A stretch of 6,025 bases of DNA, taken from NCBI GenBank assembly GCA_030619985.1, contig JAUXAI010000065.1, forward strand, positions 1-6,025, given 5' to 3'. This DNA is from a bacterium (GTDB lineage: Bacteria > UBP18 > UBA7526). A program made the position numbers and the translations under genes. Of this stretch, positions 395 through 5,513 are shown in pieces; positions within the stretch are counted from its first letter, which is position 1; every line of letters starts with the position of its first letter. The notes beneath the pieces were generated by a model that was not told where the DNA came from, made no database searches, and saw only the letters and a list, made by a program, of their open reading frames with translations.

Positions 395-409
395 CTTTCC
401 CTCCTTAAA

Positions 410-490
410 CGCTGATTGCCGCTGATATAGTGCACTGATTATCGCTGATTATCTGCGGTCATCTGCATTTTGATCTGCGCTAATCTGCGT
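410..490. repeat. Degenerate short-period repeat filling the ktrB-ktrA spacer
   Basis: Nearly the whole spacer consists of imperfect units of about 10-13 bases. On the plus strand these are variants of CGCTGATT in the left half and ATCTGCG in the right half; on the minus strand they read as CGCAGAT and AATCAGCG. The two halves are therefore related but not a clean palindrome. Similar low-complexity units occur as dispersed intergenic repeats in many environmental bacterial genomes, but that is recollection, not a search. No open frame or clear promoter is seen. A GTGCAC palindrome at 431-436 is also found in the 71-bp repeats at 2175-2245 and 2448-2518. Confidence 0.65.
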
Positions 491-491
491 A

Positions 492-1811
492 TTAGCCGAT
501 CATTACTCTCTCTTCTGGATACTTATATAATGGAGCGCGCTCCCTCTGGCCCATGGCCACAGCAATGGTTAAGGGACCGATCCTTCCCACAAACATAGTA
601 ATGGTGATTATGATCCGCCCCAGATTAGAGAGAGTATCGGTTATCCCCATTGATAACCCAACCGTGCCAAAGGCGCTGAAGACCTCAAAGAGTACCTTGA
701 TAAAAGCCTTCTTCTCAATAATCAAGAGAAGGAAACTCGACAGTATCACCAGGCCAACAGAGAGACCAACAATGGTCAAGACCTTCCTGATGGTCACCCA
801 GGGTATGGTTCTTCTGAAGAGATTGACTTCCCTCTTTCCCCGAAACATGGCAAATAAACTGGTTAAAAAGACGCAGAAGGTGCTGGTCTTTACCCCTCCT
901 CCTGTGGAGCCGGGTGAAGCGCCAATAAACATCAAGATCATTAATAAGAAGAGGCTTGCTCCTTTCATCTGGCCAACAGGTAAGGTATTGAAGCCCGCTG
1001 TCCGGGGAGTAATGGCCTGGAAGGCAGCCCCCAGTATCTTTCCTCCTACAGGGAGAGTACTTAGAGTATTATTCCCCTCCAGGAGGAAGATGAGAGGAAT
1101 AGCTATGATAATGAGAAAGAAGGTGGTGGCTAAGACTACCTTAGTATGAAGGCTCAAGGCCCCCTTTCCTTTGGGACGATATCTCTTCAGATTGGATAGA
1201 ACAGTAAACCCCAATCCACCGAGAATGATCAAGGAAAGCATTATGATATTTATTGCGGGATCGCTTCTATAACCCACCAGGCTATCTCTAAAGAGGGAGA
1301 ACCCAGCGTTGCAGAAGCCAGAGATGGCATGAAATATAGCGCAGTATCCAGGATAACTAATACCTGTCCCTCTCCACCTCAGATAGAAGAATATGGCTCC
1401 CAATCCCTCGATGCTCAGGGTCAGGATAATGACATACTTTAAGAGAACCCTTATTCCCCCTAATGTGGAGTGCTTCAATGCCTCCTGAACGACCATCCTC
1501 TCCCGCAGAGAAATCCTCTTCCCGATCATGAGGCCAAATAATGTGGCCATGGTCATGATCCCCAATCCGCCAAGCTGAATGAGCACCAGGATGACCAGTT
1601 GGCCAAATAGAGAGAAGTAAGTTCCCGTATCGACCACTTTCAGACCCGTGACACAGGTGGCACTGGTTGCAGTAAATAGGGCATCGACAAAGGGAAGCCT
1701 CTGGCCATTGGCCGTGCTTAGAGGTAGGGAGAGGAGAATGGTCCCTATGGTAATAGCGAATAGAAAGCCCAGGGCAAGGATCTGGGCAGGATTCAGTCTG
1801 GCCTTCGCCAT
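492..1811 (-). CDS. ktrB: Potassium transporter integral membrane subunit KtrB (TrkH/Ktr family)
   Basis: This is the K+-translocating subunit of a Ktr-type uptake system in the inner membrane. Its 439 residues match the KtrB size (about 445) better than TrkH (about 480). All four membrane-pore-membrane repeats are visible through their filter segments: TATSATCVTGL around residues 48-57 (G56), ISGFCNAGF at 163-171 (G170), TPRTAGFN at 268-275 (G273) and SAFGTVGLS at 379-387 (G385). The glycine-rich intramembrane gate loop of the third repeat is at 297-306 (GASPGSTGGG). Hydrophobic helices alternate with these from residue 10 to about 420. The ATG directly abuts the rplT stop (TGAATG), and its GGAGAG ribosome site lies in the last two sense codons of rplT, so translation is probably coupled. 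ktrA follows downstream. The placement after a ribosomal protein gene is unusual; the family assignment is firm. Confidence 0.95.
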   Translation of the reverse strand: MAKARLNPAQILALGFLFAITIGTILLSLPLSTANGQRLPFVDALFTATSATCVTGLKVVDTGTYFSLFGQLVILVLIQLGGLGIMTMATLFGLMIGKRISLRERMVVQEALKHSTLGGIRVLLKYVIILTLSIEGLGAIFFYLRWRGTGISYPGYCAIFHAISGFCNAGFSLFRDSLVGYRSDPAINIIMLSLIILGGLGFTVLSNLKRYRPKGKGALSLHTKVVLATTFFLIIIAIPLIFLLEGNNTLSTLPVGGKILGAAFQAITPRTAGFNTLPVGQMKGASLFLLMILMFIGASPGSTGGGVKTSTFCVFLTSLFAMFRGKREVNLFRRTIPWVTIRKVLTIVGLSVGLVILSSFLLLIIEKKAFIKVLFEVFSAFGTVGLSMGITDTLSNLGRIIITITMFVGRIGPLTIAVAMGQRERAPLYKYPEERVMIG

Positions 1812-2171
1812 TCACTCTCCTTGGTTCTTCTTAGCAATATCTACCAGTTGGGTGAAGGTCTCTGGGTCATTTATGGCTAAATCGGATAGGATCTTACGGT
1901 CGATGGCAATCTCTGCCTTTTTTAGTCCATTAATAAATCTATTATAACTTATTTCCTGGCTGCGGCAGGCAGCATTTATTCTTGAGATCCACAAGCGTCT
2001 GAAGTCCCTCTTTCTTCTCTTTCGATCTCGATAAGCATAGACCAGAGATCTGGTCACCGCCTCTTTTGCCGTTCTATAGAGTCTACTCTTTGCTCCGTAA
2101 TACCCCTTTGCAGCCTTTAATATTCTCTTCTTCTTTCTCTTTCTTGCCGGGGCATACTTTGTCCTTACCAT
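1812..2171 (-). CDS. rplT: 50S ribosomal protein L20
   Basis: Early-assembly large-subunit protein that binds 23S rRNA; in several bacteria it also represses its own operon. The 119 residues equal the family norm (118 in E. coli). The strongly basic N-terminal tail (residues 1-20), the [17 protein letters not shown] segment (23-39) and the signature [20 protein letters not shown] (51-70) are all typical, followed by the compact C-terminal helical domain. The start ATG has GAGG five bases upstream, and that ribosome site is part of the 71-bp repeat at 2175-2245. It is the third gene of the infC-rpmI-rplT cluster. Its last two sense codons, GGA GAG, double as the ribosome site of ktrB, and its TGA stop touches the ktrB ATG. 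L20 would be the natural effector of the attenuator upstream of infC, by analogy with Bacillus subtilis; nothing here proves it. Confidence 0.98.
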
Positions 2172-2174
2172 GAA

Positions 2175-2245
2175 AACCTCACTTTGTTCGGTTCGTTTAC
2201 CGTTAACCGTTCACCGTGAACCGTAAACCAAAAGTGCACATTGCA
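2175..2245 (-). repeat. 71-bp direct repeat, copy A, in the rpmI-rplT spacer
   Basis: It is identical base for base to 2448-2518 (offset 273) and fills 71 of the 75 bases between rpmI and rplT. Read in the gene direction it starts with TGCAATGTGCACTTTT. Then come five tandem heptamers of the form GGTNNAC (2195-2229) and finally GTGAGGTT, which is the Shine-Dalgarno of rplT. Heptamers two and three form a perfect 6-bp hairpin (GTTCAC, G, GTGAAC; 2209-2221), and heptamers one and five are also complementary (GTTTAC with GTAAAC). Confidence 0.95.
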
Positions 2246-2246
2246 T

Positions 2247-2444
2247 TCATCCGTAGGGAATTAATCTCCTGATATTTTTCACATCGGTCTTATGAATGAG
2301 ACCCGATTTCTTAAGGCCTCTCTTTCTCTTGGCGCTCTTCTTTGTCAGGATGTGGCTTTTATAGGCCTTTTTTCTCTTGATCTTTCCCTTCTTCGTTAAT
2401 CTAAACCTTTTAGCTGCTCCCCGCTTGGTCTTTATCTTAGGCAT
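2247..2444 (-). CDS. rpmI: 50S ribosomal protein L35
   Basis: Small, very basic large-subunit protein. The 65 residues match the family (64-66). The N-terminal [20 protein letters not shown], the central [16 protein letters not shown] region (29-44) and the C-terminal RRLIPYG ending are all standard for L35. The ATG at 2444 has GAGG five bases upstream, supplied by repeat copy B (2448-2518). The gene is flanked on both sides by the same 71-bp sequence, so homologous exchange between the copies would remove the rpmI coding region while leaving rplT with an intact ribosome site. It sits between infC and rplT in the conserved order. The identification is secure. Confidence 0.98.
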
Positions 2445-2447
2445 TCT

Positions 2448-2518
2448 AACCTCACTTTGTTCGGTTCGTTTACCGTTAACCGTTCACCGTGAACCGTAAA
2501 CCAAAAGTGCACATTGCA
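2448..2518 (-). repeat. 71-bp direct repeat, copy B, in the infC-rpmI spacer
   Basis: Perfect second copy of the sequence at 2175-2245. It fills 71 of the 79 bases between the infC stop and the rpmI start. The five GGTNNAC heptamers lie at 2468-2502, and the central perfect hairpin (GTTCAC, G, GTGAAC) at 2482-2494. The 3' end of the unit again provides GTGAGG as the ribosome site, here five bases before the rpmI ATG. The flanking bases outside the 71 differ between the two copies, so the duplication ends are sharp. Confidence 0.95.
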
Positions 2519-2523
2519 CTTCC

Positions 2524-3030
2524 CTATTTTGATTTAAGAACCATGGTCATGTTGTAGCCTGCTAATCTTGGGCTTATCTCCACTTCGGCAATCTCTTTTG
2601 TCTCTTCAATCAATCTATCTAAAAGGCGCCGGCCCAGCTCAGGATGGGATCTCTGTCTCCCTAGAAACATGATGGTTACTTTGACTTTATCTCCTCTTTC
2701 TAAGAATTTCACGGCAAGGCGTTTCTTTACCTGGTAATCATGTTCCCCGATCTTGATGCGCATCTTCACTTGTTTAATTTCATAGGTCTTCTGCCTCTTC
2801 CTCGCTTCTCGCAATTTTCGCTCTCGTTGGTATTTAAACTTCCCATAATCCATTACCCGACAGACAGGGGGAGAGGCCTGGGGAGCGATTTCTATTAAGT
2901 CTAAAGCCTCTCTTCGGGCAATCTCCAGGGCCTTTCCTATATCCATAATTCCCAGCTGCTTACCCTCTTTACCAATCACCCTTACCTCTTTGGCCGAGAT
3001 GGCCTCATTTACCCTCAACTCTTTTTTAAT
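2524..3030 (-). CDS. infC: Translation initiation factor IF-3, probable ATT start
   Basis: IF-3 binds the 30S subunit, blocks premature 50S joining and proofreads the start codon and initiator tRNA. From the ATT at 3030 it has 168 residues. The N-terminal domain contains the RVNEAI start, LIEIAPQ and the signature PPVCRVMDYGKF (residues 54-65). A lysine/arginine-rich linker helix follows, and the C-terminal 30S-binding domain starts near residue 87 (KQVKMRIKIGEHDYQVK), with RQRSHPELG and the LAGYNMTMVL ending. The frame is closed by TAA at 3043-3045 and has no ATG or GTG before the conserved start. The only candidates are TTG at 3018, 17 bases from the ribosome site, and ATT at 3030, four bases after AGGAGGAGG. 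ATT starts are known for infC in E. coli, where IF-3 discriminates against them and so represses itself. Confidence 0.96.
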   Translation of the reverse strand: MKKELRVNEAISAKEVRVIGKEGKQLGIMDIGKALEIARREALDLIEIAPQASPPVCRVMDYGKFKYQRERKLREARKRQKTYEIKQVKMRIKIGEHDYQVKKRLAVKFLERGDKVKVTIMFLGRQRSHPELGRRLLDRLIEETKEIAEVEISPRLAGYNMTMVLKSK

Positions 3031-3043
3031 CTTTCCTCCTCCT
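3028..3043 (-). promoter_or_regulatory. Strong Shine-Dalgarno with ATT start codon of infC
   Basis: Read on the minus strand the site is AGGAGGAGGAAAGATT. The extended purine tract is highly complementary to the 16S rRNA 3' end and places ATT (3030-3028) at ideal spacing, giving the N-terminus M-K-K-E-L-R-V-N-E. The next possible start, TTG at 3018-3016, is too far away. This decides the start in favour of ATT and points to IF-3 autoregulation at initiation. Confidence 0.85.
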
Positions 3044-3049
3044 TACATT

Positions 3050-3076
3050 AAAAAATTTGGATGGCAGAAGCCATCC
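3050..3076 (-). terminator. Intrinsic terminator inside the infC leader (attenuator)
   Basis: A perfect 7-bp GC-rich hairpin (GGATGGC, loop TTCT, GCCATCC; 3059-3076) is followed by AAA and six T (3050-3055) on the minus strand. It stands between thrS and infC, a few bases before the infC ribosome site, so it would stop transcripts before infC. Its 5' arm is also complementary to the start of the leader (3135-3147), so it can be prevented from forming. Confidence 0.85.
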
Positions 3077-3152
3077 TTTTCATATCTAAACCCTACGCGC
3101 AGTCCTTTCATGAGGACGCGGTAAGGTGAGAAGCGGATAGCTTCTACTTTAT
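3077..3152 (-). promoter_or_regulatory. Structured 5' leader of infC-rpmI-rplT with antiterminator arm
   Basis: The leader carries a first hairpin at 3129-3145 (AGAAGC, loop TATCC, GCTTCT). A longer bulged stem follows at 3091-3126: CCTTAC pairs with GTAGGG, CGC with GCG, and GTCCT with AGGAC around a CATGAA loop. The 13 bases at 3135-3147 (GTAGAAGCTATCC) can instead pair along their full length, with two G-U pairs, with the terminator 5' arm at 3064-3076 (GGATGGCTTCTGC). Hairpin one, the antiterminator and the terminator are therefore mutually exclusive. This matches the logic of the L20-controlled infC leader known in Bacillus. L20 as ligand, and membership of that RNA family, are inferences. 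Confidence 0.78.
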
Positions 3153-3157
3153 CTAAA

Positions 3158-5215: not shown

Positions 5216-5291
5216 TGGAGCGGGCGATGGGTTTCGAACCCACGACCTCAACCTTGGCAAGGTTGCGTTCTACCAACTGAACTACGCCCGC
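5216..5291 (-). tRNA. tRNA-Gly (anticodon GCC)
   Basis: This is a 76-nt gene including encoded CCA. Acceptor arms GCGGGCG and CGCCCGC pair fully, and the discriminator is U as is usual for bacterial tRNA-Gly. The D stem is GTTC/GAAC. The anticodon stem CAACC/GGTTG encloses TTGCCAA with anticodon GCC, reading GGC and GGU. The T arm is GTGGG, TTCGAAA, CCCAT with one G-U pair. tRNA-Cys follows 11 bases downstream. Confidence 0.97.
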
Positions 5292-5314
5292 GTCGTTCAC
5301 TTCCGTTCGCTCCT

Positions 5315-5375
5315 CAGTGGGAGAATCTAAGGTTCTCCTCCCTGGCGTTCCCTCCGATTCCATCGGAGGTCACTG
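5315..5375 (-). other. Potential three-way-junction RNA element between tRNA-Leu and tRNA-Gly
   Basis: In the 135-base gap between these tRNA genes, an outer stem CAGTG/CACTG (5371-5375 with 5315-5319) closes over two hairpins. One has a perfect 8-bp stem, CCTCCGAT, loop GGA, ATCGGAGG (5351-5369). The other is GGAGAA, loop CCTTAGA, TTCTCC (5320-5338). There is no open frame and no T tract, so it is not an ordinary terminator. It may be a dispersed repeat, a processing signal or chance. The fold was drawn by eye. Confidence 0.45.
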
Positions 5376-5379
5376 TTAT

Positions 5380-5404
5380 CCCCCTCTCCTCTAAAAAAGG
5401 GGGG
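5380..5404. repeat. C5/G6 inverted repeat in the tRNA spacer
   Basis: On the plus strand CCCCC (5380-5384) and GGGGGG (5399-5404) flank a purine/pyrimidine-biased core that includes six A. The hairpin stem would be five G-C pairs with a 14-base loop. This kind of C-rich/A-tract/G-rich unit is a frequent degenerate intergenic repeat in environmental genomes, by recollection. On the minus strand the T tract lies inside the loop, not after the stem, so it would not act as an intrinsic terminator. Confidence 0.4.
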
Positions 5405-5426
5405 CTGGTTGGTGGACTGGATGTTT

Positions 5427-5513
5427 TGGTGCGGACGAGAGGATTCGAACCTCCACGAGATAACTCCCACTAGCCCCTCAAGCTAGCGCGTCTACCAATT
5501 CCGCCACGTCCGC
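5427..5513 (-). tRNA. tRNA-Leu (anticodon GAG)
   Basis: This is an 87-nt class II tRNA gene including encoded CCA. Acceptor arms GCGGACG and CGTCCGC pair fully, and the D stem is GCG/CGC. The anticodon stem CTAGC/GCTAG encloses TTGAGGG with anticodon GAG, reading CUC and CUU. A long variable arm is present, and the T arm is GGAGG, TTCGAAT, CCTCT. It starts 22 bases after the secG stop, which leaves little space for a separate promoter, so readthrough from pgk-secG is likely. Confidence 0.97.

Follow-up and report, generated by a model that had tools for sequence, protein, structure and literature searches.

Two identical spacers flanking rpmI: a probable recent local duplication of a dispersed mosaic intergenic repeat

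REP/BIME repeats and REPINs of Escherichia coli and Pseudomonas are short, extragenic, imperfectly palindromic and dispersed, and occur in mosaics (PMC3116915). TAACTGA heptamers form arrays upstream of start codons in marine Beggiatoaceae, also within ribosomal-protein operons (PMC4679880). GGGNATC heptamers of Xanthomonas and Nostoc are located between aligned genes, about four units being preferred (PMC4692102). In small variable segments, or dimorphic intergenic loci, of E. coli the gap contents are swapped between close relatives and the flanking genes are nearly identical (PMC2884548). In Bacillus subtilis the L20 regulation site is reported upstream of infC, and the L20_leader RNA is described as confined to Firmicutes (PMC6097659). 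The repeat described here occupies both gaps around rpmI in the window (the whole 6,025-bp stretch of DNA that was analysed), where infC, rpmI and rplT follow in this order on the minus strand.

Structure of the spacers

The preliminary description claimed identity at all 71 bases, nearly complete filling of both gaps and a Shine-Dalgarno sequence in each copy; all three claims are borne out. The two stretches match at 71/71 positions with a spacing of 273. They occupy 71 of the 79 bases between infC and rpmI and 71 of the 75 bases between rpmI and rplT, and in both cases GAGG lies 5 nt ahead of the start codon (ATG) of the downstream gene, rpmI or rplT. A 71-base exact repeat is by far too long to arise by chance in 6 kb; after it, the longest direct repeats of the window measure 25–27 nt, at 76–78% identity.

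Table 1. Features of the infC–rpmI–rplT region, in window coordinates
Feature	Position	Strand	Remark
sub-threshold L20_leader (RF00558)	3043..3155	-	41.9 bits, cut-off 58.7
infC (IF3)	2524..3018	-	putative start
71-bp spacer copy 1, infC–rpmI gap	2448..2518	-	71/71 match; unchanged in G002
5' mini-hairpin GTGCA-ATG-TGCAC, copy 1	2507..2519	-	compensatory pair change in G004: GTGCC-ATA-GGCAC
34-bp heptamer array (GTNNACG)4-GTAAAC, copy 1	2468..2501	-	inverted ends GTTTAC/GTAAAC
tail hairpin AACC-GAACAAAGTGA-GGTT with GAGG ribosome-binding site of rpmI	2448..2466	-	
rpmI (L35)	2247..2444	-	
71-bp spacer copy 2, rpmI–rplT gap	2175..2245	-	71/71 match; orthologues in G004, G003
5' mini-hairpin TGCA-ATG-TGCA(C), copy 2	2234..2245	-	
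34-bp heptamer array, copy 2	2195..2228	-	
tail hairpin AACC-GAACAAAGTGA-GGTT with GAGG ribosome-binding site of rplT	2175..2193	-	
rplT (L20)	1812..2171	-	

Each copy consists, on the coding strand, of three parts: a mini-hairpin, a 34-bp heptamer array and a tail hairpin. The array, with the successive units GTTTACG, GTTCACG, GTGAACG, GTTAACG and GTAAAC, is a tandem array of 7-base period and at the same time a quasi-palindrome. The units follow GTNNACG, the centre being variable, and the general form of the core is (GTNNACG)4-GTNNAC. The arrays of both copies stop 22–23 nt before rpmI or rplT, and many other arrays lie farther from the start. In the tail, the predicted pairing comprises AACC/GGTT, two G.A mismatches, two pairs and a three-base loop, with the ribosome-binding site in the 3' side. 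Compensatory double changes are present once in each of the three hairpins among the orthologous spacers (five sequences only). A strong single RNA fold was rejected, the whole 75-nt spacer being no more stable than its shuffles (z -0.63). No match to either spacer was found in an Rfam search.

Dispersal and relatives

The element is a mosaic of dispersed hairpin modules. A dispersed element and a local one were posed as alternatives in the preliminary description, and each holds for a different part: the core and tail are dispersed, and the full 71-mer is limited to these two gaps. In the genome that contains the window (G000), the full 71-mer is present at two sites only, both in this operon, and the 34-base core matches at about 20 other places. 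The element can thus be taken neither for a unique operator nor for a simple insertion element, because its modules are dispersed and the whole was found only twice; on account of the dispersal of core and tail, a unique local operator was rejected.

The four-unit heptamer pattern is present in 6/6 genomes of the family vs 8/380 other genomes. Among 54 arrays, four and five units are commonest; 37 start with GTTTAC and 26 finish with GTAAAC. Arrays in gaps mostly have 3–6 units, and at some loci they are seen in pairs. In 406 kb of sampled contigs, with gene calls made by a simple script, 12 of 13 arrays are in gaps, mostly between genes of the same direction. The remaining array, of 5 units, is inside an open reading frame (L010 1501–1535; G002:C30:55568–55601). 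At L124 and L125, too, arrays seem to be within coding sequence; such placement recalls the Rickettsia palindromic elements in genes.

In the stretches sampled for repeat counts (785 kb, two genomes, G000 and G002; gaps and coding DNA separated by the same script), the strict form of the tail hairpin has 28 copies in 107 kb of gaps vs 6 copies in 677 kb of coding sequence; 496 kb from three unrelated genomes contain none. Most gap copies have a start codon 2–11 nt downstream, and paired changes occur at both inner pairs. Gaps in this family hold many types of short-period quasi-palindromic repeats. Another dispersed type (CTGATT/ATCTGCG), with 28 further matches in G000, is located in the trkA–trkH gap (window 405–505). 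Plasmid or phage origin was rejected, as neither collection gave a match to the element; a 5-unit array is present in seven viral contigs, by pattern only. A literature search with the exact repeat sequences gave apparent chance hits only, among the matches listed.

In G002, of the same genus as G000, the 71-mer is unchanged (71/71) in the infC–rpmI gap, and a different 106-bp repeat spacer precedes rplT. In G004, which belongs to another genus, the gap upstream of rplT contains a copy at 93% identity, and the one upstream of rpmI a different repeat (CACGGATTA...). Part of the copy (86% over 50 bases) is present upstream of rplT in G003 as well, and in G001 the rplT spacer agrees at its 5' end, over 14 bases (ATGCAATGTGCACT). 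The infC–rpmI gap is without the 71-bp copy in G001, G003 and G004. The rpmI–rplT site is probably the older and the infC–rpmI copy derived, because G004 and G003 have the copy there and G001 shares its beginning; this direction is read from five genomes of one family. The G000 rpmI–rplT gap is one base short (GAATGC for GAAGTGC). Since the base is common to copy 1 and G004, the donor of copy 1 may be a lineage other than G000.

Between G000 and G002, infC and rplT are ~97–98% identical overall, and 50-base windows of thrS, infC and rplT mostly 98–100%; in the 5' half of rpmI identity falls to 86%, and the gap before rplT is wholly different. This looks like a recombination tract over rpmI and the rplT-side gap in one of the two genomes. 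The perfect identity of the 71-mer needs neither ongoing conversion nor selection, because the flanking genes are so little diverged (~0–3%). Of the explanations in the preliminary description, ongoing gene conversion is therefore superfluous; recent duplication is supported in the form of recent local copying. At the far end of rplT, this gene and trkH overlap or abut in G000 (window about 1808–1818), and in G002 (L147) an insert of ~250 bp comes between the two; on either side of the insert the genomes are nearly identical. Between tRNA genes, a hairpin-rich stretch (window 5291–5430) is strongly unlike G002.

Likeness of neighbouring gaps

Likeness between gaps was scored in 16 contigs of G000 and G002, without the contigs of the rpmI spacers themselves. 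Sense-orientation likeness is seen in 17/215 pairs of gaps that flank a single gene, vs 75/5096 pairs separated by more than six genes (odds ratio 5.7, p 1e-7). At intermediate distances the counts are 7/195 (two genes apart) and 23/722 (3–6 apart). Under a different sampling of distant gaps, 22/2770 are alike. The effect is clear in G000 alone (adjacent 14/110, distant 48/1626) and weak in G002 alone (3/105 vs 27/3470, p 0.06). In a control set of E. coli K-12 plus two unrelated genomes, the counts are 1/56 for adjacent gaps, of which there were only 56 pairs, and 0/1699 for distant ones. Inverted likeness at the same cut-off is found in 4/215 neighbouring vs 25/5096 distant pairs, counts too small to carry a claim of inverted copying.

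Clear examples of matching gaps are located around groES, the N-half of transketolase and a 146-aa gene. Both groES gaps belong to the CACGGAT type in G002 and at one of the two loci of G000, and to the TTTGCG type in G001; at the other locus of G000 the two gaps are unlike each other. Because groES gaps match with different repeat types per genome, neighbouring gaps came to match more than once. The two groES loci of G000, G000:C70 (L223) and G000:C32 (L227), have different surrounding spacer types. The rpmI spacers are an ordinary case for G000, and the pattern of neighbour likeness is the interesting part. It is conceivable, though doubtful, that the family has an undescribed process by which a whole spacer, including the ribosome-binding site, is copied to the next gap in the operon. 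Neighbouring genes (L35/L20, GroES/GroEL, the transketolase halves) would then repeatedly share a ribosome-entry cassette, the repeat type differing by lineage.

Interpretation and comparison with described systems

Both 71-bp spacers are probably a recent local duplication of a dispersed mosaic intergenic repeat, without a dedicated regulatory role. The element would first have been present in the rpmI–rplT gap and then have been copied, in sense orientation, into the infC–rpmI gap on the branch that led to G000 and G002, so recently that the copies have not diverged. The mechanism would most likely be duplication of a gene-plus-spacer unit with later loss of the extra gene and the old spacer, or, alternatively, conversion or template switching between the gaps. 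Duplication and loss would give sense-oriented copies, keep the gene order and work without homology between the two spacers. The element would serve between the cistrons as an ordinary spacer, equipped with a ribosome-binding site of its own, and not as a dedicated sensor.

An artefact of assembly or binning, by which one spacer copy was pasted in from another strain, is very improbable. The source contig is as short as the window and belongs to a draft genome 84% complete, and rpmI between the copies diverges from G002 far more than the flanks do; against this, for both copies, independent orthologues occupy the corresponding gap in separate genomes (G002 for copy 1; G004 and G003 for copy 2), and a false join via the 71-base repeat would lose rpmI, not double the spacer. 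The duplicated translational control element put forward in the preliminary description, the same RNA structure before rpmI and rplT binding a regulator such as L20 and thus equalizing L35 and L20 translation, is not favoured either, and we regard it as improbable. The ribosome-binding site within a hairpin in each copy and the one compensatory change per hairpin agree with it, as do two other same-spacer cases that flank partner genes (groES–groEL and split transketolase). However, unrelated repeats occupy the first gap of G001, G003 and G004 and the second gap of G002, the modules precede many unrelated genes, the fold of the spacer does not exceed its shuffles, and other alike gap pairs are without obvious partner genes. 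In addition, a below-cut-off L20_leader match (E 6.8e-6) is located upstream of infC. An L20 operator at the rpmI and rplT spacers was rejected, as Rfam gave no match at the spacers; L20 autoregulation most likely sits at the match upstream of infC, the place reported in B. subtilis.

A repeat that is dispersed, extragenic and quasi-palindromic, with inverted ends GTTTAC/GTAAAC, would also fit a mobile REP/REPIN- or MITE-like miniature element that, mobilized in trans by a transposase, had entered this operon twice; such an origin is nevertheless unlikely. The full 71-mer including its flanks is restricted to this operon, no target duplications were noticed, and many unrelated repeat types behave likewise. 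The Y1 (RAYT-type) transposase, PF01797, was found in none of six family genomes (drafts, 53–93% complete), and the control search was positive in 5/14 known genomes; REPs driven by a Y1 transposase were rejected on this ground.

Bacterial intergenic DNA is usually read as regulatory or decaying. Here the gaps seem to be interchangeable repeat cassettes with ribosome-binding sites, which pass to adjoining gaps and do so even in an operon of core ribosomal genes. Should this copying prove real and frequent, operon spacers would be a case of local concerted evolution and a warning against taking identical spacers for shared regulation.

Like REP/BIME repeats and REPINs, the rpmI spacer repeat is short, extragenic, imperfectly palindromic, dispersed and mosaic (PMC3116915); with a 34-bp core and nearly all arrays in gaps (12/13), it is a dispersed extragenic imperfect palindrome in the 20–60 bp range. 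It differs in several ways: no REPIN transposase (Y1, RAYT) was found in the draft genomes of the family, the next gene's ribosome-binding site is part of the repeat, the core consists of heptamers in an array, and a single genome contains many unrelated types of repeat. Like the TAACTGA arrays of Beggiatoaceae, its arrays repeat every 7 bases and lie in gaps ahead of start codons. The unit here is GTNNACG, not exact TAACTGA, with a variable centre and a palindromic layout, and a ribosome-binding site follows the array, whereas canonical sites are reported to be rare in Beggiatoaceae (PMC4679880). Like GGGNATC heptamers, those of the rpmI type lie between aligned genes and favour about four units; the former are G-rich and quadruplex-forming (PMC4692102), whereas the arrays here are predicted hairpins. 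Replacement of gaps between relatives of G000 with near-identical flanks resembles the small variable segments of E. coli, but the replacing segments here are dispersed repeats, and the same one is often present in the neighbouring gap.
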